Positions 44,220 to 61,158 of a stretch of DNA of 64,000 nucleotides are shown here, one piece after another. The notes under the pieces were generated by a model. That model was not told where the DNA came from and searched no databases. It worked only from the letters and a program-made list of their open reading frames with translations. Position numbers and translations under genes: made by a program. The number at the start of each line of letters is the position of its first letter. Position 1 is the stretch's first letter. Source of the stretch: Curvibacter sp. GWA2_63_95 (GTDB lineage: Bacteria; Pseudomonadota; Gammaproteobacteria; Burkholderiales; Burkholderiaceae_C). The stretch spans positions 1 through 64,000 of the forward strand of contig MGPB01000017.1 in the NCBI GenBank assembly GCA_001795455.1. The letters are read 5' to 3'.

Positions 44220-44501
44220 CTAGGCCGTGACCTGCACGCCCTTCCAGAACGCCACCCGGTCGCGCACCATTTCCGCTTCGGGTTTGGGGTCGGCGTAGTA
44301 CCAGACGGCGTCGATGTTCATCTCGCCATTCACCAACAGCGAGTAGTAGCTGGCCTGGCCTTTCCAGGCGCAGCTGGTCTTGTGGTTGCTGAACTGCACG
44401 TAGTCGCGGTTCAGGGCGCTGGCGGGAAAGTAGTGGTTGCCTTCCACCAGCACGGTGTCATTACTTTCGGCTATTACGGTGCCGTTCCAAATTGCTTTCA
44501 T
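44220..44501 (-). CDS. DUF427 domain protein
   Basis: 93 residues, a single DUF427 domain. Recognisable by KAIWNGTVIAES at the start, VEGNHYFPASALN, KTSCAWKGQASYYSL and the end FWKGVQV. Family function is unknown. Intact and of normal length. Divergent from the ABC-transporter binding-protein gene; the shared gap is 117 bases. Confidence 0.88.
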   Translation of the reverse strand: MKAIWNGTVIAESNDTVLVEGNHYFPASALNRDYVQFSNHKTSCAWKGQASYYSLLVNGEMNIDAVWYYADPKPEAEMVRDRVAFWKGVQVTA

Positions 44502-44618
44502 TGCAGGCTCCGGGCTCGCATTCAGGGGCTCCCATTGCACCACAGCACCGGCCATCCGGAGGGTTACCCGGGCTATTCGCTTTCGCTTATCCTGTGCCCT
44601 CATTTGAAAGGACCCGCC

Positions 44619-45548
44619 ATGCGTACATCCTCGCTTTTTGCCCGCCGCCACCTGCTGGTGCTGGCAGCCGGCCTGCTGACTAGCTGGGCCGCCCAGGCCC
44701 AAAGCCCAGTGCGCGTGGGCTCCAAGATCGACACCGAAGGCAAACTCCTGGGCAACATCGTGGTGCTGGCACTGGAGGCCCATGGCATCAAGACCGAGAA
44801 CAAGGTGGCACTGGGCAATACCAAAGTAGTGCGCACCGCCCTGCTGGCCGGCGAGATTGATATTTACCCCGAATACACCGGCAACGGCGCCTTCATGCTG
44901 GGCGACGAGAGCAACCCGGCATGGAAGAACCTGCGCGCTGGCTACGAGCTGGCCAAGAAAATGGACCTGGGGAAGAACAAAATCGTCTGGCTGGAGCCGG
45001 CCAATGCCAACAACACCTGGGCGATTGCCGTGCGCCGCGACGTGGCCACGGCCAACAAGCTGCGTACGCTGGACGACATGGGCCGCTACATCGCCAAGGG
45101 CGGCACCTTCAAGCTGGCGGCCTCGGCCGAATTCATGGAGCGGGCCGATGCCATGCCAGCCTTCCAGGCGGCGTATGGCTTCAAGCTGCGCGCCGACCAG
45201 TCGCTGGTGCTGGCCGGTGGCGACACCGCAGCCACCATCAAGGCCGCGGCCGAAAAGACATCGGGCGTGAACGCCGCCATGGCCTACGGCACCGACGGCC
45301 CGGTAGCCGCGTTGGGCCTGGTGGTGATGGACGACCCCAAGGGCGTGCAACCCGTGTACGCACCCGCGCCCCTGGTGCGTGAAGAAGTGCTCAAGAAATA
45401 CCCCGCCATTGCCACGGTGCTGGCGCCCATCTTCAAGGCGCTGGACGGCCCCACGCTGCAAATGCTGAACGCACGCATCCAGCTCGAAGGCCAGGACCCA
45501 CGCAAGGTAGCCACCGCCTTCTTGCAGAGCAAGGGCTTCCTGAAATAG
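44619..45548 (+). CDS. Osmoprotectant ABC transporter binding protein (OsmF/YehZ-like)
   Basis: 309 residues from the ATG at 44619 with AAAGGA seven bases upstream. Signal peptide (RRHLLVLAAGLLTSWAAQA) then an OpuAC-type fold: VRVGSKIDTEGKLLGNIVV, LAGEIDIYPEYTGNGAFM. The IYPEYTG motif and late LVVMDDPKGVQPVYAPAPL are typical of glycine-betaine/choline or OsmF-type binders. First gene of a four-gene operon. Ligand not certain. Confidence 0.9.
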   Translation: MRTSSLFARRHLLVLAAGLLTSWAAQAQSPVRVGSKIDTEGKLLGNIVVLALEAHGIKTENKVALGNTKVVRTALLAGEIDIYPEYTGNGAFMLGDESNPAWKNLRAGYELAKKMDLGKNKIVWLEPANANNTWAIAVRRDVATANKLRTLDDMGRYIAKGGTFKLAASAEFMERADAMPAFQAAYGFKLRADQSLVLAGGDTAATIKAAAEKTSGVNAAMAYGTDGPVAALGLVVMDDPKGVQPVYAPAPLVREEVLKKYPAIATVLAPIFKALDGPTLQMLNARIQLEGQDPRKVATAFLQSKGFLK

Positions 45549-45556
45549 CCGCCGCC

Positions 45557-46723
45557 GTGGCGGACACGCCCTCCCGGCGCAGCAACCCGGTGCTGGCACT
45601 GTGTGTGGCACTGGCACTGGCTGCCGCCTGGGCCCTGCCCTTTGTGCGCGTGGCGCCCAACCGCCTGCTCTCGGGCGAACCCGTGTTTGTGATGGACCTG
45701 CTGCAGGGCCTCGGGGCTTGCTTGGTCGCCGCGCTGCTGCTGGCGCTGGCCATGGCGGCAGTGCAGGCCCAGCGCCGCGCCACGCACGGGCTGGTGCTGG
45801 CCGCCATGGCGGCCGCGCTGGCCGGGCTGTGGCTGCTGGCCGGTGCACATGCCCAGCACGTGGCGCACACCGAATCTTCTTTGCACCGCACGGCACTGGG
45901 TGCTGGCTTCTGGACGCTGGCGGGCCTGGCCTGGCTAGTGGCGCTGGACGCCGTGGCCCGGTTGCGGTTGGGCACGCTGGCGCGGCTGGCGGTGCTTACC
46001 GCCGCCGCCCTGCCCTTGCTGGCCGTACTGGGCATGGGGCAAGACTTGTCCATTGCCCAGGAGTACACCAACCGCAGCGATGTGTTTGGCGCCGCCGTGC
46101 TGCGCCACCTGCAGATCGTGCTGCTGTCCATCGTGCCCGCGGTGGCCATGGGTGTGCCGCTGGCCTGGGCCATGGTGCGCGCGCCACGGCTGCGCCAGGC
46201 GCTGTTTCCCGTGCTCAATGTGATCCAGACGATTCCCTCCATCGCACTGTTTGGCCTGCTGATGGCGCCGCTGGCCTGGGCCGCCGCGCAGGCACCGGTG
46301 CTGGGGCAGATGGGCATCAGCGGTGTGGGCCTGGCGCCCGCGGTGCTGGCACTGCTGCTGTATGCGCTCTTGCCCATCGTGCGCTCCACGCTGGCCGGGC
46401 TGGAGCAGGTGCCCGTGGCAGTCACCACGTCGGCGCGTGCCATGGGCATGGCGCCCTGGCAGGTGCTGTGGCAGGTGGAGCTGCCGCTGGCGCTGCCGGT
46501 GCTGCTGGTGGGCCTGCGCACGGCGGTGGTGCAGACCACGGGCCTGGCCGCGGTGACTGCGCTGGTGGGTGCCGGGGGCTTGGGGCACATCATGTTTGAC
46601 GGCCTGTTCAGCGCGGCCAATGAGCTGGTGATGCTGGGCGTGCTGCCCATTGTGCTGCTGGCCGTACTGGCCGATGCCCTGTTCAAGGCGCTGGCCGCGC
46701 TGCTGGAAACCCCCACCGCATGA
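45557..46723 (+). CDS. Osmoprotectant ABC transporter permease (YehY/OsmY-like)
   Basis: 388 residues from a GTG at 45557, nine bases after the binding-protein stop. The long N-terminal region with several extra membrane helices is followed by the usual permease core: RHLQIVLLSIVPAVAMGVPL, VIQTIPSIALFGLL and VTTSARAMGMAPWQVLWQVE, LPLALPVLLVGLRT. The extra helices are a feature of the YehY branch. The ATG of the ATPase gene overlaps its stop. Confidence 0.88.
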   Translation: MADTPSRRSNPVLALCVALALAAAWALPFVRVAPNRLLSGEPVFVMDLLQGLGACLVAALLLALAMAAVQAQRRATHGLVLAAMAAALAGLWLLAGAHAQHVAHTESSLHRTALGAGFWTLAGLAWLVALDAVARLRLGTLARLAVLTAAALPLLAVLGMGQDLSIAQEYTNRSDVFGAAVLRHLQIVLLSIVPAVAMGVPLAWAMVRAPRLRQALFPVLNVIQTIPSIALFGLLMAPLAWAAAQAPVLGQMGISGVGLAPAVLALLLYALLPIVRSTLAGLEQVPVAVTTSARAMGMAPWQVLWQVELPLALPVLLVGLRTAVVQTTGLAAVTALVGAGGLGHIMFDGLFSAANELVMLGVLPIVLLAVLADALFKALAALLETPTA

Positions 46724-47661
46724 TCACCTTCGACCACACCAGCAAGTCGTATGACGGGACGACTGCCATCACCGACCTGGACCTGACCATTGCCCGCGGC
46801 GAGCTGTTGGTGCTGATTGGCCCCTCGGGCTCGGGCAAGTCCACCGCGCTCAAGATGATCAACCGCATGGTGGACCACGACGGCGGCCGCATTCTGCTGG
46901 ACGGACAAGAGATCTACAGCTTCAACGTGCGCGACCTGCGCCGGCGCATGGGCTATGCCATCCAGTCGGTGGGCCTGTTCCCGCACTGGACCGTGGCGCG
47001 CAACATTGCCACCGTGCCGCAGCTGCTGGGCTGGAGCCAAGAGCGCATCGAAGCGCGTGTGACCGAGCTGCTGACCCTGTTTGCGATGGAGCCCGCGCAG
47101 TACCGCGACCGCTACCCGCACCAGCTGTCGGGCGGGCAGCAACAGCGTGTGGGCGTGGCGCGCGCACTGGCAGCCGACCCCGATGTGCTGCTGATGGACG
47201 AACCCTTTGGCGCGCTGGACCCGGTGACACGCGCTGCGCTGCAGCTCGAACTGAAACGCGTGCACCAGGCGTCTGGCAAAACCATTGTGCTGGTCACGCA
47301 CGACATCGACGAAGCCCTGCTGCTGGCCACACGCATGGTGCTGCTGCGCCAGGGCCGCATCGAACAGGTGGGCACACCGCTGGAACTGCTGGCCACGCCA
47401 GCCAACGACTTTGTGGCGGATTTTTTGGGCCGTGCGGACCGCGGGCTCAAGCTGCTCTCGCTGCGGCCCGTTGCACCGCTGGTGCAGCCACTCAACGGGC
47501 CCGTGCCCACCGTGCAGATTGCCGATACCGCCACCGTGCGCGAAGCCCTCTCGCAGATGGCGGCGCATGCGGTGTCGGCGCTGCGGGTGGTGAATGCTGC
47601 GGGCGAGCCACTGGGCCAGGTGCGCGCGGCCGATCTGCTGGAAGCGCAGGCCCGTGGCTAA
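46720..47661 (+). CDS. Osmoprotectant ABC transporter ATP-binding protein
   Basis: 313 residues. Walker [10 protein letters not shown], signature [15 protein letters not shown], Walker [15 protein letters not shown]-loop [12 protein letters not shown]. The Q-loop [13 protein letters not shown] is typical of betaine transporters. A single CBS-like module at the C-terminus ([19 protein letters not shown]) may sense ionic strength as in OpuA-type systems. Overlaps the start of the second permease by eight bases. Confidence 0.93.
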
Positions 47662-48418
47662 GGACGTGGTGAACGCCCCGCACCCGGCCCGCGCCTGGTG
47701 GGCCGACCGCCTGCTGTGGACAGTGGCCCTGCTGCTGGCGCTGGCCTATGGCCTGCCGCACAGCGCGCCGCTGTTTGCCGCGCTGTTCCCCGCCCTGCCG
47801 CGTCCGGTCTACCTGCAAGAGCCACTGGCTGCGCTGCTGTGGCAGCACCTGGGTCTGGTGTTGTTGTCCAGCGCGGTGTCGGTGCTGCTGGGCACGGCGG
47901 CCGGGCTGGCCGCCACGCGCCCGGCAGGCCGCGCCTTCCGCCCGCTGCTGGAAACCATCGCCGCCCTGGGGCAAACCTTTCCGCCCGTGGCCGTGCTGGC
48001 CGTGGCAGTGCCCGTGGTCGGTTTTGGGGAACTGCCGGCGCTCTTGGCGCTGTCACTGTTTGGCCTGCTGCCGGTGCTGCAGGCCACGCTGGCGGGGGTG
48101 GAGTCGGTGCCGCAGCCGGTGCAAGAGTCTGCCCGCGCCATGGGCCTCTCGCCCTGGCAACAGCTGTGGCAAGTGCAAGTGCCGTTGGCCTTGCCGCTGT
48201 GGGTGGCCGGCGTGCGCACCTCCGTCATCATCAACATCGGCACCGCCGCCATCGCCTCCACCGTAGGTGCCAAGACGCTGGGCTCGCCCATCATCGTGGG
48301 CCTGAGTGGCTTCAATACCGCCTATGTGCTGCAAGGCGCGGTGCTGGTCGGCCTGCTGGCCGTGGCCGCCGACATGGCGTTTGAGCGGCTGGCGCGGCAG
48401 GTGCAGTGGCAGCACTGA
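47654..48418 (+). CDS. Osmoprotectant ABC transporter permease (OsmW/YehW-like)
   Basis: 254 residues from a GTG at 47654; GTG at 47666 or 47669 is also possible. Five to six membrane helices with [37 protein letters not shown] and the coupling loop [38 protein letters not shown] is highly characteristic of the betaine/choline permease family. Completes the four-gene operon. Confidence 0.9.
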
Positions 48419-49231: not shown

Positions 49232-51829
<2,598 letters not shown>

Positions 51830-51975
51830 TGCTGCTCCCGCGACGGTTTATGGAATGACAACCAGCTTGGGGCCATGGTGCCCCATTTCAAGGCCAGCGC
51901 CCGTGCGCCAGCGGACATTGGCAGGCGGTTTGATCCACATCAAACCGCCCTGCCCCTCGCGCCGGTGTCCGCCAC

Positions 51976-54900
51976 TCAGGCCAGGGTCCACTCGGTCACC
52001 ACCTGGTCGGGGGTGCTCACATCAAAACGGCGCATGCTGAAACTGGCGCGCAAGCGCTGGCCGCCGCTGGCCAGCGGCGCCAGCTCGCACTCGAGCCAGC
52101 CGTCGCCGTTCCAGGCCTGCGCTTCAATCTGCGCATTGCCACCCGCCAACGGCACCGTCTCCTGCGCCAGCACATCGCTGGCGGCCACGTTGGCAAACCG
52201 CAGCGGCGCGTGCAGCGGCGGTGCGACCAGCGCGTAGGCCAAAACCTGGCTGTGGCTGAAGGTGATGGTGGCACTGGCCGCACAGTGGTAATCGCCCGAG
52301 AGGAAGACCACGTTGCTGATGTGCTGCGTGGCAATGAAGTCCAGCACACGCTGGCGGTCGCCTTCGGCAAACTGCCAGTTGTCGGTGGACCGCGGTGAGG
52401 GCCGGCCCAGCCCCTGCACCAGGCCCGGTGCCAGCACCGCGCCCGTGGCAATGAACTTGGCATGGTGGCCGCGTGCCTGCTCTTGCAGCAGCCAGGCTTC
52501 CAGCACCGGCCACTGGCCGGGCTCCAGCAGGCGCCGCTCGGCGCCCAAGGCGCGGTTGCGGTGCACCCGGGTGTTGAGGGAGAGAAATGCCGCTGCCGCG
52601 TGCGAAACCGCTCCGTCGTGCCCCTGCGGCCCCAGCGGTGCCGGGCCATGGGCGCGCTGGAAGGCGGCAAAAGCGCTCAGTGCATTGCGCGTGAGCACGG
52701 CGCGCGCCGTGCCCAGCCGCTCTTCGTCGCGGCTCCAGTTGTCGGCAATCTCGTGGTCGTCCATGGCCATGTAGAACGGCAGGCTGCGTGCGAGTTGGCG
52801 AAAGCCCGCCGAGCCAAAGGCTTCGCGGTAGCGCGGCAGCAGCGACTCGATGGGGGAGCTGCTGGAGGCCAGGCCGGCGCGTGCATCGGCATAAATCTGG
52901 TCGCCCAGCATCCACATCAGCGAAGCTGGCGCCTGCCGCTGGCGCTCGGCCAGCTGCTGCAGGGTGTGGTCGCTGCGGGCGGCCTCCAACGCGGTGATGC
53001 CTGGGTGGCGGCAGGTGGCGGCCACAAAACGCAGGCCGTTTTGGGGGGCCAACACATCCGCTTGCAGGCGCAGCACGCAGTCGCGCATCCAGCGCAGGCT
53101 ACGGCGCTCGCGTGACAGCGTGCCGGGCTGCGCGCGCAGTGCCACGGCGCGCTGCTCGCGCACCAGCGCGGCCAGGGGCCGCAGCAGGGCCACGGCGTCG
53201 TCCAGCGTCAGGTCCAGCGGCAGGGGCTGCAGCGCACCATGGCCTACCGCGTGCGGCACGGCGGTGGCTGTCGGGGCCAATTCCCAACCTGCGGCTCCTT
53301 GGCCCTGTGCCAGGGTTTGCCGGTAGTCCGCATGTGCAGCCTCGGCCGACGGTGGCACCGCAGGCACCGGGCTGCGCCCGGCACTGTGCGCCACATCCTG
53401 CACGGTCACCGGTGCGCCCCACACATCGGGCCAATGCAGCGCCTGGGCTGCGCCATCGGTGGGTGCATCGGCAGCAATGCGGTGCAGGCTCACCATGGCG
53501 ACGGTGATGGCACCCTGCCAGTCGGCGGGCACACGCAGATCGGCCACCGCATACACAATGCTTTGGTCGGGTGCTGCGTCCTGTGCCACGCCCACCAGGC
53601 CTTCGAGCGGACTGCTGACCAAGGACCAGGCGTGCACACTGCGCTGGCGCCCCACCGAGAGCAGTGTCATGGCGGCCACGGCGGTGTCGGCCTGGGAGTT
53701 GTCCACCTCCATCCACACGCGCAGCACTGTCTCATCCCCCTCACGGCGTACCCACCCCGTGAGCGGTCCGGTGCGCGGCAAGCGCGCACGCAGGCGGTTT
53801 TGCGTTACCGGTTCGGGTAGGTCGGCAGCCTGGGCTTGGTTGAAAAAGTCCACCACCTCCGAAAAAATGACCTCGGGCGCACGCTTGCCAATGGTGCAGT
53901 CAAAGTGCGCATGTTCGGGTGCCACCAAAAAGCGGTCGAGACCGGTGGCCAGGCGCTGCCCGCCAAAGGCACGGCTGAACTGGCGTTGCGTCTCGTGCAG
54001 CGACTCCTGGTCGAACAACACGTTGTCAGCCCCATGCAGCAGCATGACCGGCATGCCCAGGTAACGGCGCACGTTCTCATCCGTCACGTAGATGTTCTGG
54101 CCATCGGCGTCCACCAGGTGTTCGTACTCCACACACTTGGCACCGTGCAAAAACACGCCCAGGTTGGTGCGGCCAAAGTACAGGTCCAACTTTTCGTGCG
54201 TGCCGGGGCGGCCGGGTTGGCTCTCAATCAACTGGTCGTGGCGGAACAGGCGGCTCAGGAAGCCGGCCATGCGTTTGCAGGAGGTGCTGTCGGGCTGGTG
54301 CACGCGCAGGTCGTGTTCGTGCGGGCAGCGCTCGGCCTCGTCGTAGTGGAAGCTGGCAAACAGCCGATCCATCAAGGCATGCAGGCCATCCGCCTGCGCC
54401 GTGCCCGCGGCAAAGTTCACATACTCCAGGCCCAGCGCATTGACCATGAGTGCGGCCACCTGCAGGCGCATTTGCGCGGTGACGGAGCCAATCACATAGG
54501 GCTGGAACTGCGAGAACAGCACCGCCGCCACTTTGGGCTTGCCCGCTTCGTGCATGAGGTGCCCGCCCAGCAGCGCCATGGCGGTAGAGGCCGAGCCCAC
54601 GCAGTGGCTGAACACGCTGAGCTGGCCCGGCAGCAGCTCCGGCTCGCTGCGTTCGGCCTGCAGCACGGCCAGCGCGTGGTTGACCGCAGCCGGCAGGTCG
54701 CAGGCGCCAATGTCATCCATGCTGGACAGCCGGGCCGAAGCGCGCAGGAAGGGGCTTACGCGGTATTCGAGCAGCCACACGTCCCAGCCCTGCGCATACA
54801 GCATGGCGGCCAGCGCACGTTCGCCCAGCTCCTCGGCCACAAAGGGCAAGGTGTTTTGTGCAAAGCCGTTGAGCAGGATGATGGACTTGAAACGCCGCAG

Positions 54901-57900
54901 GCCCTGCGCGGTAACGCTGGACTCGACCCGCGGCTGGGCGTAGCGCACCAGGCCGATGCGGATGGTTTCGGTTTTCGGGTCCGACGCATCGGCCCCGGCA
55001 CGCAAAGGCACCGTCAGGCACACCGGTGCCTGTGGCGGCACCACACGGCCATCGGGCAGGCGAATGGGCGGGTACTGGTCCGCCGTCAGCTCAAAGTCGC
55101 CGTTGTCGGGCAGCGTGGCAGGGTCGGTGGCTGGGAGGTCTTTTTTGTAGTCGGGCAGGCGGAAGTCGAGCATGCGGCTGCTGACCACGTAGCGCAGGAT
55201 GGTGAGTGGGTAGGTGATGAAGGCGGCCAGCGCGTTCACCGTGTCGGGGCCCGGTTTCATTTGTGGCGCGATGCGGCGCACCATCTCGGGCACATCCATG
55301 GTGAGGCGGCCCGTGGCCAACACGCGCCCACCCTTGGCCTGCATGAGCTGCACGTCCAGCTGGGTCAGCTCGTCCCACACACTGCGGCGTTGTGGGGCGG
55401 GCCAGCCGCCGTGCCGAAGTTTCTTGCGCAGCCAGCCCCACAGCTCCGCCCAGCTCAAGGCAGGCTGGATCAGCTTTTCACCTTGCAGGTACCAGCTGCG
55501 TTCGCCGTCACTCAACGTGAGGCGGTAGTCAAAGGTTCGGGCAGCACTGGCATGCCAGAGCAGCTTGAGGCCGTCCCAAACCATATCGCTCAGCCTTTGT
55601 TTCTTGTCTCCCTCTTCCTTGGGACGCAGGCTGTCGGGGTACCAGCGGGTGATGCCGTAGGTGAGCCCGGCGCGCACCGCGCGGCAGGCTCGGGCCCCCA
55701 AACCCTCGGGGGCGGCGCGGAACAACTGCACCGTGCCACCAGTGACGTGCAACACGGTGGATGGCCCCTGGGTGGCATCGATCACCAAACGCGAGGTCGT
55801 GAGGCTGCGCGCCGTAGGGGTGCCCGGCAAGGCTTGTAACGTGTGGCGGGGGTCCTGCCACAGGCGCGTCCAGTCGGCCACATCCATCTGCAAAAACAGC
55901 GCCGCAGCCGGTGCAGCTGGCCCGGCGGGCCACCAGGGTGGCAGCACGGCATCGGGCTTGGGCTGCAAGGGGCCGCGCAACACCTCGGCCAGCACAGCGC
56001 CGTGGGGGGCCTCGGGCTCGGCTTTCACCATGGGGGCCACGGGCGGGTGCGGGGGCAAGGCGCGGGTTTGCGGCGCGCGGGCGGTCTCGTTTTGCAGCAG
56101 CAAACGGCAGGTCCGCTCGGCCAATGCAGTGATGGTGAGCAAGGGGTTGACCCCCAGCGAGGTGGGGATGACCGAGCCGTCCACCACCAGCAAGCCGGTG
56201 TGTACGCCCCCATCGGGCAGGAAGACCTGGCCCAGGTGGTTGACCACCCCCTGTGTGGGCGAGGCCCCCATGCGGCAGCCGCCCAGCGGGTGCACCGTGA
56301 CCCAGCCGCTCTCGGCCTTGGGACCACTGAGCACGCTGGCAATCTTGTCGGGCAACACGCCGCTGGCCGGGTTGGGCAAAAACTCGGCCCCCACGCCTTC
56401 CACACTGGCAGCACGGCTGCGGTGCAACCCGGGCGCGGGGTCCACCGCACCACTGCCCCAGGACCAGGCGATGCGCGACTGCGGCTTGGCCAGCCGGGCC
56501 TGCCCGGCCGAGCTGTCGTGCCCCATCCCCAGCATGACCAGGCTGCGCGCGGTGCGCCGGGGGTCCGCCACCAGCGGGTCCTGGCTAGCCGTTTGGCGCA
56601 GACCAAAACGCGCCAGTTGGGGCAGCACCCCCAGCGTGGCCAGGGCTTCACCCACCACGGGGGCGAGCATGCCGGGGATACCGCCGTCTTCGGTGACCGT
56701 GCTGCGGGTGTGGTCCTGGGTGTCGTGGTAGCGGATCACCGCACTGATGGTGGGGCCGACCTTGTCGGAGGCAGCGCGCACGGCGCCACTGCCCTCCCCC
56801 AGTGCGTTGGCCGTGTCTGCCATGTCATAGGCGGCGCTCAGGTCATCCCCATTGGCCGAGATGCCCCGGCCCAGCCAGCTGTGGGCCACGGGCAAGCCAT
56901 GCTCCCGCGAGCGCAACAGGATTTCACTGGAGCCAAAGGTGCCCGCACTGAGCACCACGCGGCCGGTGCGCAGCACAAATTCGTAGGCGCTGTTGAGCGG
57001 TCCCTCCGGTGCCTCGAAGGACTGCTCCCAAGTGCCGCGCTCGGTGGTGCGCACGCAGTGCACCAGCCAGTCGCGTCCGGGGTGGGCCACATCGGGCTGG
57101 TGCCGCACATACAAGACGCTGACGCCGGTGAACATGCGCGCACCGGCTTGGGCCGCGCGCGGCAGGTAGGTTTTGTCCAGGCTGAGCTTGGCGTTGTGGT
57201 TGCAACCCGAACAACAGTCGCCACAGCCCACGCAGGCATCGCGCGGGCCCAGGGTCAGCGGGGCATCGGCGCGAAACTCGATCGCCAGGGGCACGTCTTC
57301 GGTGCTGACCTTGAGGCGGGCATTGGCAAACCGGTCTGCGGCGGCCTGGCCGATCTCCTGCATGCGCTGGTATTTGGCGGTGTGCTGCGGCACACAGGCT
57401 GGCGAAGCGCGCTGGGCAGCGGGTGACTGAACTTCCAGCACCTGTACGGCCTGCGCGTAGTCGGCATCCAGCGAAGCCTCGCGCAGCGCCACAGGCCACG
57501 CCTCTTGCTGGAACACGCGTGCATCGGGGCGCAGCGCCACCGCCGCGTTGATCAGGCTGCCACCGCCCAGGCCATTGCCCACCAGGGCCGTGGCGCGCGT
57601 ACCCACGCGAAAGTCAAACAGCGCATCCTCGTACCCCATCGCCGCAGGCCCCTGTTGGCGTTCGGCATTACCACCCACCTCAACCCGCACAAAGCCGCCG
57701 AACTGGCCAAAGTCAGTGGGGAATTCACCGGCAAGGTACTCAGCACCTCGCTCCAGCACGGCTACGCTGTGGCCATGTTCGGCAAAACGCAATGCGGCCA
57801 CCGAGCCGCCATACCCCGAGCCCACCACCACCACCTCGGGCGCGTAGCCCTCTTCCTGGGTGCTGGCAATCAGTTGCTCCACACCGTGTGACAGCCAATG

Positions 57901-57903
57901 CAT
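51976..57903 (-). CDS. Three-domain enzyme: GMC/cholesterol-oxidase-like, alpha/beta hydrolase, PhoD-like phosphatase
   Basis: A single uninterrupted 1975-residue frame; GGGAGA precedes the ATG at 57903. Residues 1-610 are a GMC oxidase of the cholesterol-oxidase type: FAD motif VVGSGYGGS at 26-34, [12 protein letters not shown] at 109-120, cysteine-rich [11 protein letters not shown] at 224-234, catalytic histidine in [12 protein letters not shown] at 535-546. Residues about 670-960 resemble the linker found between oxidase and hydrolase in related proteins. Residues about 1000-1360 are an alpha/beta hydrolase with SHCVGS at 1099-1104 (nucleophile position is cysteine), acid in [11 protein letters not shown] and histidine H1331 or H1333. 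Residues about 1600-1975 are PhoD-like: LGDQIYAD (1666), DDHEIADNW (1715), LSGDYHCAA (1868). No signal peptide. Confidence 0.85.
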
Positions 57904-57933
57904 GGCAGATCTCCCTGAATGTTTCTATGGATT

Positions 57934-60381
57934 TCACCGCACAAAAGGCAGTTGTGTTTCGCACCAACGGTCAAACTCGGGCACGGGCATGGGTGCCGCA
58001 GCAAACCAGCCTTGCGCATAGTCGCAGCCAATGGCCCGCAGTAGCGACCACTCCTCCGCATCCTCGGCCCCCTCGGCCACCACCGTGAGCCCCAGCCGGT
58101 GCCCCATGGCAATGGTGGACTCCAGCAGTGCAGCACCGTCGCTGCCGGGGCGCACATTGCGCACAAAGGCGCGGTCGATCTTGAGTTCGACCACCGGCAT
58201 TTTTTGCAGGTAGGCCAGCGAGGAGTAGCCGGTACCGAAGTCGTCAATTGACAGGCTGAAGCCGCTGGTGCGCAGCGCGTTCATCACCTCCAGCGCCGAG
58301 GCCGGGTCCTGCATGGCACCGCTCTCGGTGATTTCGAGCCGGATATCACCCGGATCCACACCCACCTCGTGCGCCAGGATGGCGGTGCGGGCTGCAAAGC
58401 CGGTTTCGCCCAGATCAAAGGTGGAGAGGTTGACCGATATCTGCAAGGGCCGCCCCTGGGCGCGGTAGCTGGCGGCCAGGCGCATGGCCCGCTCCAGCAC
58501 CCAGCGGGTAATCAGCGTGATGCGCCCGGTCTTCTCGGCAAAGGGCACAAAGTCGCCGGGCGGAATCATGCCGCGGCGTGGGTGCTCCCAGCGCACCAGT
58601 GCCTCGGCACTGCCCACCGTGCCGTCGCTCAGGCGTACCTTGGGCTGCAGGTACAGGCGCAGCTCGTTCTGCTCCACCGCCCGCTTGAGCTCGGACAGCA
58701 AGTCCAAATCGGCCCGCTGGCTCGTCTCCATTTCCTGCTGGTACAGCAGCCAGTTGCGGTGCTGGGTGCGCCCCGCGTCGAGTGCGATTTCGGCGTTGCG
58801 CAGTAGTTGCGCCATGGTGGTGTGGTCAGCGGGGGGCAGTGCCACCCCCACTGCCAAGGTGATGTCGACCGCCTGGCCCTCAATCTCTGCGGGACTGTTG
58901 AACGCGTAGTCCACCTCTTCGCGCATGGCCGTGAGGCCGATGTCGCTGGGAAACACCAGACAAAACTGGTCTGCGTGCATGCGCCCCACACAGGCGCTGG
59001 CGTGCACTCGGCAAACGGCCTGTAGTCGGCGCCCGGTTTCCTTGAGAATCTGGTCCCCCAGCGTGGGGCCCAGGGTTTCGTTGATGGCGTGAAAACGCTC
59101 CACATTGAGCATCAGGGCCGCGGGCACATCCCCTTCGTCGATGCGCAGTTGGCCATACTGCCGTGCGCCCTCGCGGTTGAGCAGACCTGTGAGCGCATCA
59201 AAGCGGGCCATGCGAGAGGTCTCACGCTGCAGGCGCAGCGTGCGGTCGGCAATGCCGTAGCAAAACGCAACGGGCAGCAACAGGGTGCGCGCGAAATCGA
59301 AAGTGGAGCCCAACGCCACCGCCGAAGGCATGGGCTCGCGCAGAAGCACGTTGTAGAGCAAGAAAGCAAGCCAATAGACGGCAATCGGGGTGAGCCCCAG
59401 CAGCAGAATGCCACAGCCGCGCTCACCTCCACGCCAGCCGCGCCAGTTGCCGGAGAGCAGCACCAGAAAGTGCAGCGGCACCAGCCCATAGATCAGCACA
59501 TTGGCCAAACCGGGCCACAGGTAGTGCAAAGGGATCATGCTGGCAAACAGCACAGCCACACCATAGGCCACCTTGGTGGTGCGGGGGCTGTGTTTGGCAA
59601 AACGTCCAAAACGCACGCTTAGCAATACCGACAGCACACCGACCAGGTAATTGAAAATCCAGGCATTGAGCCAGAGCGGAGAGCTCGCATCCAGCACAAA
59701 CGGCAGCCCGCTCTTGGTGAAAATGGTGAGCGACTGCAGGCTCGCATACAGCGCATAAATGGCGTAATTGACCTCTCGCAGGGTAATGCTGAAAAACAGC
59801 GCCACCAGCGCGGTGGTGAACAGAAAGACTGCGCCACTGTGGTTGAGAAGGTCGGTCCCGTGTTCGTCGCGCAGGCTGTCTTCGGGCACCACGGCCTCCA
59901 CCAGAAGGGTGCGCGCCAGACCGGGGTAGGCCAGAGCACCCAGGGCCGGCTCAAAGCGGGCGTAGAGCGGAAACACGGCCACGGCATCGGGGGGAAACAG
60001 GGCACGCAAGCCGGTGACCACCGCCCCACTGCTGGGGCCCAAGCGCAAGGCCTGCCCCAAGGGCTTGCCCCGGGCATCGAACAGGGCAATGTCCACGCGC
60101 TGCACATTGAGGTCGGCAAAGGACAGCCAAGGCCGGGTTTGCTGTGCCTGGGCCGCAGGCAAGTGGCGGATGCGAATCCAGCAGGCGCCGCCTTCCGGGT
60201 CCACCGGCACCTTGCCATCGGGCGCCGCAGTCCAGCCGTTGTCGGGATGGGCCATGGGCTGCTGCACCGACTGCAGGTCGCAACGATAGTCCACCGGCAA
60301 GGCAGCAGCCCACACCCACGCACTCCACAGCGTGACCGCCACACCCCCTCCAAGCCGCAGTGCGAGTCGCCGGAAATCCAT
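57934..60381 (-). CDS. Membrane EAL phosphodiesterase with degenerate GGDEF domain
   Basis: 815 residues from the ATG at 60381 (AAGGG five bases upstream; a longer frame upstream lacks support). Signal-like helix, a periplasmic 7TMR-DISMED2-like sensor (ALPVDYRCDLQSV, CWIRIRHLPA), a seven-helix membrane region around residues 180-370, a GGDEF domain whose signature is changed to HADQF (VGRMHADQFCLVFP), and an EAL domain with all key motifs intact: SAEALVRW, ISVNLS, LEITES, SIDDFGTGYSSLAYL, LKIDRAFV and VVAEGAED. It should break down cyclic-di-GMP and not make it. The end lies 30 bases upstream of the 1975-residue fusion gene, so the two may be cotranscribed. Confidence 0.9.
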   Translation of the reverse strand: MDFRRLALRLGGGVAVTLWSAWVWAAALPVDYRCDLQSVQQPMAHPDNGWTAAPDGKVPVDPEGGACWIRIRHLPAAQAQQTRPWLSFADLNVQRVDIALFDARGKPLGQALRLGPSSGAVVTGLRALFPPDAVAVFPLYARFEPALGALAYPGLARTLLVEAVVPEDSLRDEHGTDLLNHSGAVFLFTTALVALFFSITLREVNYAIYALYASLQSLTIFTKSGLPFVLDASSPLWLNAWIFNYLVGVLSVLLSVRFGRFAKHSPRTTKVAYGVAVLFASMIPLHYLWPGLANVLIYGLVPLHFLVLLSGNWRGWRGGERGCGILLLGLTPIAVYWLAFLLYNVLLREPMPSAVALGSTFDFARTLLLPVAFCYGIADRTLRLQRETSRMARFDALTGLLNREGARQYGQLRIDEGDVPAALMLNVERFHAINETLGPTLGDQILKETGRRLQAVCRVHASACVGRMHADQFCLVFPSDIGLTAMREEVDYAFNSPAEIEGQAVDITLAVGVALPPADHTTMAQLLRNAEIALDAGRTQHRNWLLYQQEMETSQRADLDLLSELKRAVEQNELRLYLQPKVRLSDGTVGSAEALVRWEHPRRGMIPPGDFVPFAEKTGRITLITRWVLERAMRLAASYRAQGRPLQISVNLSTFDLGETGFAARTAILAHEVGVDPGDIRLEITESGAMQDPASALEVMNALRTSGFSLSIDDFGTGYSSLAYLQKMPVVELKIDRAFVRNVRPGSDGAALLESTIAMGHRLGLTVVAEGAEDAEEWSLLRAIGCDYAQGWFAAAPMPVPEFDRWCETQLPFVR

Positions 60382-60524
60382 TGCTACCCTTGTTGAATGC
60401 GCTGAGGCGGAGACTGAATGGGGCAAGACCCACTGCAGCAACTGCCTGCGAATGATTGTAGGTGGATCAGGCCCAAAGCGCCTGTTTTCAGGGCCCGGGT
60501 GCTACGCTTTTCGCCACAGGGGGC

Positions 60525-61025
60525 TCAGGCGTTGCGTGCCTCTATGCCCCAACGCGCCAGGGCTTCGTCGTCACTGACGCGGGCATCCACCCAATGCGCG
60601 CCGGCGGCCGTCTGCTCCTTCTTCCAGAAAGGCGCTTGGGTTTTGAGGTAGTCCATCAAAAACTCGCAGGCCTGGAAGCTCTGCCCGCGGTGGGCCGAGG
60701 TCACGGCGACCAGGACCACGCCGTCGGTCGGGTACAACAGGCCCACGCGGTGCACTACGCGGGCGCCCAGGATGTCGAAACGTGCAAAAGCCGCGTCCAC
60801 CATGGCTTCGATGGACTTCTCGGTCATACCGGGGTAGTGCTCCAACTCCATGGTTTGCACCGACCCTTCCGCACCCGGCACATTGCGGTCCCGCACCGTG
60901 CCCACAAAAGTGCAGACGGCACCCACACGCGGATCACCGGCCTGCAGGGCGGTAATCTCTTGCGCCACATCGAAAGGCTGTGGCTGGATTCGAACACGGG
61001 GGGAAGAAATGGCGTCAGAAGGCAT
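60525..61025 (-). CDS. moaE: Molybdopterin synthase catalytic subunit
   Basis: 166 residues from the ATG at 61025. Converts precursor Z to molybdopterin together with thiocarboxylated MoaD. Family motifs: GAVCTFVGTVRD, MELEHYPGMTEK, HRVGLLYPTDGVVLVAVTSAHR, and the catalytic lysine region APFWKKEQT. Separated from moaD by a dapA-like gene on the other strand, although the two normally lie together. Confidence 0.95.
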   Translation of the reverse strand: MPSDAISSPRVRIQPQPFDVAQEITALQAGDPRVGAVCTFVGTVRDRNVPGAEGSVQTMELEHYPGMTEKSIEAMVDAAFARFDILGARVVHRVGLLYPTDGVVLVAVTSAHRGQSFQACEFLMDYLKTQAPFWKKEQTAAGAHWVDARVSDDEALARWGIEARNA

Positions 61026-61059
61026 GGTCGAATTGTGGCACCGTGCTAGCATGGCAGCC

Positions 61060-61158
61060 ATGTTCACAGACACCACACGCTTCACCATGGCCATTTTGGC
61101 TCTGGCAGGCGCGTGCGCGATGGCTGCGAACACTTCCAAAAAACCCAAGCTCATTTGA
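61060..61158 (+). CDS. Possible small exported peptide
   Basis: A 32-residue frame divergent from moaE. It has a hydrophobic stretch (FTMAILALAGACAMAA) and a lysine-rich end (TSKKPKL) like a tiny lipoprotein or membrane peptide; the LAGAC sequence resembles a lipobox. An in-frame ATG at 61087 is also possible. No clear ribosome-binding site. It could be chance; similar small frames would need to be found in relatives. Confidence 0.25.
   Translation: MFTDTTRFTMAILALAGACAMAANTSKKPKLI

Follow-up and report, generated by a model that had tools for sequence, protein, structure and literature searches.

The fusion gene and its setting

The window considered here is a stretch of 64,000 nucleotides at the start of contig MGPB01000017.1 of Curvibacter sp. 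GWA2_63_95 (assembly GCA_001795455.1, order Burkholderiales), and the subject of this report is a single reverse-strand gene within it whose product joins a GMC flavoprotein domain, a lipase-like alpha/beta hydrolase and a PhoD phosphoesterase domain in one polypeptide. A first-pass annotation, made from the sequence without database searches, had described the protein as a three-domain machine lying next to a gene for cyclic di-GMP (c-di-GMP) turnover. The gene, its parts and the signalling genes discussed below are listed in Table 1.

Table 1. Features of the fusion gene, its upstream neighbour in the window and the divergent cyclases of three related loci
Feature	Coordinates	Strand	Basis or remark
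Whole coding sequence	51976..57903	(-)	1975 aa: GMC, middle region, acid-lipase-like alpha/beta hydrolase, linker, PhoD
Ribosome-binding-site-like AGGGAGA	57910..57916	(-)	six bases upstream of enzyme start codon; sequence read
GMC flavoprotein domain, cholesterol-oxidase-like, residues 1-620	56044..57903	(-)	Pfam; profile match to cholesterol oxidase
Ferredoxin-like motif C224-x2-C227-x2-C230-x3-C234, in GMC domain	57202..57234	(-)	cysteine conservation in relatives
Middle region, residues 621-985	54949..56043	(-)	matches no known family
Hydrophobic helix-like segment, residues 889-907, near end of middle region	55183-55239	(-)	hydropathy
Alpha/beta hydrolase, residues 986-1420, gastric/lysosomal acid lipase relative	53644..54948	(-)	profile A4
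Cys1101, nucleophile position, SHCVG	54601..54603	(-)	aligned to lipase serine
Asn1294	54022..54024	(-)	aligned to Asp at 1hlg chain position 316
His1333 (AHFD/GHxD)	53905..53907	(-)	aligned to His at 1hlg chain position 345
Linker, residues 1421-1600, poorly conserved	53104..53643	(-)	dN/dS; alignment A1
PhoD domain, residues 1601-1975	51979..53103	(-)	C1631, D1668, Y1671, D1715, D1716, D1721, N1722, D1871, H1873
Upstream neighbour, 7TMR-DISM - GGDEF - EAL	57934..60441	(-)	ends 30 bp before enzyme start codon
Adenylate/guanylate cyclase, about 1370 aa, divergent	L060:3459-7565, L067:3455-7564, L080:7356-11462		Ensifer plasmid pair and one same-phylum genome

The reading frame runs from ATG to stop without any internal stop codon, and Pfam placed GMC_oxred_N at residues 100-331 (7.5e-11), GMC_oxred_C at 531-594 (5.8e-14) and PhoD at 1658-1938 (1.4e-19; score 70.9 bits, cut-off 27), the query having started at codon 2, so that one is to be added to these coordinates for numbering from the ATG. 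Full-length orthologues (1-1974/1975) were found at 67-92 % identity in Rhodoferax, Curvibacter and another Burkholderiales record (L002-L005 and L007, the L numbers denoting fetched loci), together with incomplete orthologues in one Pseudomonadaceae bin and one Pseudomonas bin (59 and 62 % identity). Ratios of nonsynonymous to synonymous substitution (dN/dS, Nei-Gojobori) between the window and L002-L004 lay between 0.02 and 0.11 in every one of five segments, the linker among them, with synonymous divergence (dS) above 1 in two segments of the L002 comparison; those against L005 and L007 were rough, dS exceeding 1, and ranged from 0.09 to 0.49 with the maximum in the linker. Whichever of the five orthologues was compared, the hydrolase segment gave the lowest ratio (0.02-0.04 with L002-L004). 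The odd size of the protein is the sole point in favour of an assembly artefact or chance read-through, a possibility that is negligible and was rejected because the full-length arrangement recurs in several independent records and in other genomes, and because the linker itself is under purifying selection. The fusion protein is a real, selected multi-domain enzyme with all its domains under purifying selection, and the uninterrupted 1975-residue frame originally proposed is borne out by the frame itself, the Pfam matches, the orthologues and the dN/dS ratios.

A GMC flavoprotein domain with a ferredoxin-like cysteine motif

Membership of the GMC family was indicated by scores of 42.7 bits for GMC_oxred_N (PF00732, cut-off 23) and 53.3 bits for GMC_oxred_C (PF05199, cut-off 24.6), and the FAD motif GSGYGG occupies residues 28-33. 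H538 and N586, presumably the GMC catalytic pair, were kept in all 44 aligned GMC relatives, and the profile of these relatives (A7) had cholesterol oxidase as its top structure match (3.8e-52; PDB 4u2l, 1coy), with the catalytic subunit of FAD-glucose dehydrogenase lower down (6a2u, 2.2e-18). Cholesterol oxidase, choline dehydrogenase and mycofactocin MftG were each rejected as a name for the domain, as the scores lay far under the NCBIfam cut-offs (148.6 bits against 850 for the cholesterol oxidase equivalog NF058674).

Placed between the flavin motifs is a ferredoxin-like motif that reads C224-VG-C227-GD-C230-CSG-C234 (family form CxxCGxCxxGC) and whose four cysteines were all present in each of the 63 relatives covering the site; short pieces around it weakly matched Fer4_6 in 32 of 36 members (best 1.3e-4). 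Cholesterol oxidase type I, although the closest solved GMC structure, had no such cysteines at the corresponding stretch of a phmmer alignment. In FAD-glucose dehydrogenase, itself a GMC protein, Cys212, Cys218 and Cys222 in a loop spanning residues 197-229 bind a 3Fe-4S cluster at 12-13 A from the flavin (PMC6719666, excerpted sections). The two proteins are alike in combining the GMC fold with a cysteine cluster but differ in the spacing, which is CxxCxxCxxxC here, and the aligned ranges and similar numbering suggest that the motif may occupy the same loop. Because of the ferredoxin-like motif and the existence of an iron-sulphur (Fe-S) GMC relative, this part of the protein appears likelier to be an Fe-S flavoprotein alcohol dehydrogenase than an O2-using oxidase, and the term oxidase in the first-pass annotation gives way to one that allows for Fe-S electron transfer. 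Variants of the CxxCxxCxxxC type were also present in 11 of the 12 looser GMC-only relatives fetched for comparison (about 550 aa; among L091-L103, e.g. L097:4425-6074), additional GMC-only matches with frames of 539-611 aa having been left out, and the motif was for this reason rejected as a hallmark of the fusion.

An acid-lipase-like hydrolase with a Cys-Asn-His triad

The fetched loci yielded 65 frames containing both GMC and hydrolase parts, hereafter rows, of which 54 were aligned over the hydrolase (A4, omitting L003, L006, L008, L021, L053, L055, L056, L059, L061, L067 and L088). The hydrolase region of the window protein alone matched no Pfam hydrolase model at E 0.01, and Abhydrolase_1 was matched at this region by 46 of the 54 aligned relatives. 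The profile of the 54 matched gastric lipases (1hlg, 9.2e-20; 1k8q, 5.7e-19) and lysosomal acid lipase/cholesteryl ester hydrolase (6v7n, 6e-18), followed more weakly by polyhydroxyalkanoate (PHA) synthase (9knj, 3.5e-5) and then polyhydroxybutyrate depolymerase. Cys1101, Asn1294 and His1333 were each invariant in the alignment; over all 65 rows the cysteine was present in every one and the Asn and His motifs in 63, being visible in nine of the 11 omitted rows, the remaining two being L008, which ends too early, and L021. The lipase residues to which these align are what we take to be the published triad Ser153, Asp324 and His353. In place of the Ser-Asp-His triad of its closest solved relatives, the acid lipases 1hlg and 6v7n, the domain accordingly presents Cys-Asn-His in 54 of 54 cases. 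The hydrolase elbow noted at first pass is present, with cysteine rather than serine as the nucleophile, and the replacement of both Ser and Asp tells against the ordinary esterase that had been supposed.

In PHA synthase a lipase fold carries a cysteine nucleophile, and its Cys-Asp-His triad can be superimposed on gastric lipase (PMC5509742, excerpted sections). The cysteine is common to PHA synthase PhaC (9knj, 6k3c) and the domain described here, whereas the acid position is Asp there and Asn here. Since PHA synthase demonstrates a Cys nucleophile in such a fold, acyl transfer or thioester chemistry would be as likely as hydrolysis. The substitution of both Ser and Asp would also be expected if the lipase-like domain were a non-catalytic acyl-binding scaffold, leaving only the GMC and PhoD parts active, but this seems quite improbable given that Cys, His and Asn are each invariant and that its dN/dS, lower than that of any other segment in every comparison, suits a working site.

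A PhoD domain with no visible export signal

The C-terminal domain falls within the PhoD family (PF09423), scoring above the cut-off and keeping the Fe/Ca ligand positions, and the profile of 31 PhoD relatives (A6) matched Bacillus subtilis PhoD (2yeq) at 2.9e-23. The residues that PhoD needs are C180, D207, D265, D266, N272 and D436 (PMC4223295, excerpted sections), to which C1631, D1668, D1715, D1716, N1722 and D1871 correspond, and N271 is matched by D1721, all allowing for a difference of 56 between the numbering of the paper and that of the chain. Among the 31 relatives, C1631, D1668, Y1671 and D1871 were kept in 30 and D1715, D1716 and H1873 in all; position 1722 was Asn in 23, Asp in four and another residue in four, and position 1721 was Asp in 24, Asn in five and another residue in two. 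The metal motifs read from the sequence at first pass are therefore upheld as ligand positions kept across relatives, and the catalytic residues, whose degeneracy would have lessened the novelty of the protein, are conserved on alignment.

The PhoD family also includes a phospholipase D from Streptomyces chromofuscus (PMC4223295, excerpted sections). The domain resembles this enzyme and B. subtilis PhoD in its Pfam match and Fe/Ca ligand positions but differs from them in being fused and in showing no export signal. Read by eye rather than with a dedicated signal-peptide program, the N-terminus showed no such signal, in agreement with the first-pass reading, and the most hydrophobic window lay at 409; the N-terminal twin-arginine (Tat) signal of classical exported PhoD is absent on the same by-eye reading. 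The NCBIfam alkaline phosphatase PhoD model gave 20.6 bits against a cut-off of 1000. A second, ordinary PhoD (363.5 bits) is encoded on a different contig of the same genome.

The middle region, which lies between the GMC and hydrolase domains, had no convincing relative in PDB (best E 0.13) or in Pfam (single-member matches, best 0.0086). The hydrophobic segment near its end is possibly membrane-touching, and a similar segment was seen by eye in six of 12 other rows printed.

Recurrence of the trio in fused and split form

Matches were found in 35 of 200 family genomes at 1e-20, 21 of 300 order genomes at 1e-80, 14 of 369 class genomes at 1e-60 and 5 of 249 phylum genomes at 1e-60 (different query), counts which include the window's own genome and, outside the genus, many GMC-only matches. 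There were also matches in 40 plasmid records, one of which spans at least 80 % of the query, and a fusion on an Ensifer plasmid is labelled just 'alpha/beta fold hydrolase' (WP_205239617.1). Seven loci without a whole GMC-hydrolase frame (L032, L033, L039, L049, L050, L074 and L083) and a hydrolase-PhoD fragment (L037) were not counted among the 65 rows, and fragments and near-duplicates (L006, L008, L061, L053, L055, L056 and L059) were omitted from an unrooted tree of 58 GMC domains.

In this tree a branch with 100/100 support separates a short clade of 24 rows, with frames of 1141-1656 aa from stop to stop, from a long group of 34. The surroundings of these rows were surveyed systematically for signalling, PhoD and phosphoesterase genes. 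PhoD accompanied all 34 long rows, being fused in 23 (L045 was scored as fused despite an interruption of its PhoD part in the contig) and encoded by a separate gene within 600 bp in 11, with a minimum of four changes between the fused and split states. The search for genomes keeping all three parts joined, which the first-pass annotation had proposed, thus found both joined and separated forms in the long group. None of the 24 short rows had PhoD, and a metallophosphoesterase of another type lay within 600 bp in 12 of them, against none of the 34 long rows; a short-type locus fetched later and standing outside the tree, L091, also had a metallophosphoesterase adjacent. As all long rows have PhoD and half of the short rows another metallophosphoesterase, the phosphoesterase found with the GMC-hydrolase pair takes two different forms. 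The recurrence of the trio, either fused or as neighbouring genes, supports the view that its three domains behave as one functional unit, as the earlier description of a single machine had it.

Examples of the short-clade metallophosphoesterases are L064:6229-7908, L038:8023-9780, L066:4456-5904 and L062:6029-7879, the last of which is so annotated, and plasmids and Bacteroidota are among their carriers. A plasmid of Leptospira borgpetersenii (L088:5504-14299) has a gene annotated as sphingomyelin phosphodiesterase about 3.5 kb from its short-clade GMC-hydrolase gene.

Proteins of about 1150 aa with GMC and hydrolase parts (for example WP_149201188.1 and WP_338815766.1) are already in the databases, annotated as 'alpha/beta fold hydrolase' or 'GMC oxidoreductase', and share with the fusion the same GMC domain, the cysteine motif and the Cys-nucleophile hydrolase. 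They differ from it in the absence of PhoD and, with a single exception among the 24 sampled, of a signalling gene within 600 bp.

Signalling genes beside the enzyme

The EAL domain of the gene upstream of the fusion (2e-68) has its motifs EALVRW, DDFGTG and KIDR intact, as expected of a c-di-GMP phosphodiesterase, and its GGDEF domain is degenerate (HADQF). The c-di-GMP phosphodiesterase neighbour first reported therefore stands, and the observation widens with the related loci. With L045 lying at a contig edge, 33 of the 34 long rows could be assessed for a signalling neighbour, and 31 of these had a signalling gene adjacent or fused, as compared with one of 24 short rows (L027) within 600 bp. 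The partner was a hybrid histidine kinase in 23 of the 33, including L020, where it shares a frame with the enzyme, and L073, where it lies on the opposite strand; a 7TMR-DISM-GGDEF-EAL gene in five (the window and L002-L005); and a divergent adenylate cyclase in three (the near-identical Ensifer rows L060 and L067, together with L080). Since most long rows adjoin a hybrid histidine kinase, c-di-GMP was rejected as a special partner in general. At least five changes of partner type are required across the tree.

Pfam confirmed the HisKA, HATPase and receiver domains in seven kinase examples, the input regions of which matched no Pfam family at E 0.01. Of the 21 kinase frames on the same strand as the enzyme, 18 ended no more than 35 bases from the point where the GMC domain becomes recognisable, a reference used in place of a determined start codon. 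In L020 (L020:1003-8331) a single frame of 2443 aa comprises a hybrid histidine kinase, a receiver and the GMC-hydrolase-PhoD enzyme. Farther out in the short clade, a kinase or cyclase homologue lay 0.8-2.4 kb away in L043, L044, L079, L086 and L088.

The moaE-clpB insertion site

Nine good assemblies of the genus were compared at the interval between moaE and clpB, which is 234-802 bp long in seven members without the enzyme and 8.7-8.8 kb in two that bear it. The window, where the stretch with clpB and moaE is 49232-61154, has a comparable interval of 8695 bp. As moaE and clpB lie close together in the enzyme-free members, the GGDEF-EAL gene and the enzyme gene are extra DNA at an accessory insertion site. 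In L007 the enzyme was found at this site and the GGDEF-EAL gene was not. Beyond clpB, at 44382-48418, is a cluster which, judging from the translations, would encode an osmoprotectant (glycine betaine/choline type) ABC transporter.

Interpretation

The architecture, the residue conservation, the co-occurrence of the parts, their fusion and fission and the signalling neighbours were all obtained by computation. We tentatively favour, at somewhat less than an even chance, their interpretation as a recurrent cytosolic module of GMC, Cys-His-Asn lipase-like and PhoD domains for signal-linked lipid or ester processing. In such a module, which would work in the cytosol and might do so at the face of the membrane, the PhoD domain would take a phosphate or a phospho-head group off a lipid or a phosphoester with a long chain; the lipase-like domain would take up or transfer an acyl group through a cysteine thioester, by hydrolysis or acyl transfer; the GMC domain would oxidise a hydrophobic alcohol, with electrons passing from FAD to an Fe-S cluster; and the signalling protein encoded next door, whether a hybrid histidine kinase, a cyclase or a GGDEF-EAL protein, would couple this processing to a signal. 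The Fe-S cluster, the acyl-thioester chemistry, the lipid-type substrate, the location and the direction of the signalling link are what we infer from the patterns described above.

Several observations weigh against this interpretation. The rows are mutually related, so that the counts are not those of independent events, and a signalling neighbour was not detected in two of the 33 assessable long rows (L007 and L057). The contrast between long and short rows shrinks beyond 600 bp, six of the 24 short rows having a signalling gene within 2.5 kb, and the kinases may simply regulate transcription. The L020 junction contains a run of G and is known from one genome, where a small sequencing error is possible. 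The Cys-His-Asn triad may be only weakly catalytic or not catalytic at all, and the divergent L021 shows neither the Asn nor the His at these places. The cysteine motif, being carried by the GMC-only relatives as well, marks a wider GMC subgroup and is not specific to the fusion, and AlphaFold2 models of residues 1-1000 and 970-1975 from eight-row alignments were unusable (mean pLDDT 29.6 and 37.3).

The main rival is a purely catabolic enzyme that would strip phosphate, acyl groups and hydroxyl hydrogens from phosphoesters or esterified alcohols for food or phosphate, with the sensor merely switching the gene on, and it should be regarded as a serious if rather unlikely possibility. It would account for the patchy accessory distribution, matches at 1e-100 being found in three of 61 genomes of the genus, the window's own included (three of 30 among the good ones), and the locus being extra DNA between moaE and clpB, and also for the TRAP-transporter genes directly downstream of the enzyme gene on one Ensifer plasmid (L060). 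Each of the three parts has hydrolytic or oxidative relatives, and where the short clade has a phosphoesterase partner, a signalling gene is mostly not adjacent. A catabolic role sits less well with a cytosolic PhoD, with the replacement of Ser-Asp by Cys-Asn, and with signalling neighbours of three unrelated types.

The same neighbours could alternatively indicate that the module acts by making or breaking down a small lipid-like signal, which the adjacent kinase, cyclase or GGDEF-EAL protein would perceive, in keeping with hybrid kinase genes that end at the start of the enzyme gene and with the apparent in-frame fusion in L020. This is improbable, as the exchange of the partner for unrelated signalling proteins speaks against one fixed ligand and the seven kinase input regions, lacking any Pfam family, give no positive hint of lipid sensing. 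The signal may instead flow towards the enzyme, in that the trio would be a dedicated signal-transduction output machine on which hybrid histidine kinases and, in their stead, class III cyclases or GGDEF-EAL proteins act directly at the protein level, and its three steps of lipid processing would yield either a messenger derived from a lipid or a membrane lipid in remodelled form. This stronger proposal is doubtful; were direct action of this kind true, the trio would represent a new class of effector, of which the 2443-aa polypeptide of L020 would be the extreme form.

GMC-hydrolase proteins are already known from databases and all the parts belong to known families. The first-pass annotation had tied the novelty of the protein to its arrangement being neither common nor already described; the arrangement is recurrent, and no description of the three-part form, the Cys-Asn-His lipase or the recurring signalling neighbours was found in the open-licence literature at the level of listings and abstracts. 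If the favoured interpretation of a signal-linked lipid- or ester-processing module is right, entries now labelled 'alpha/beta fold hydrolase' would represent a lipid-processing system that is linked to signalling and chemically notable on two counts, namely a ferredoxin-like motif in a cholesterol-oxidase-like flavoprotein and a Cys-His-Asn triad in an acid-lipase fold. It would also provide a testable link from sensor kinases or second messengers to lipid chemistry, for which the fused, split and partner-swapped versions would serve as natural experiments on the substrate.

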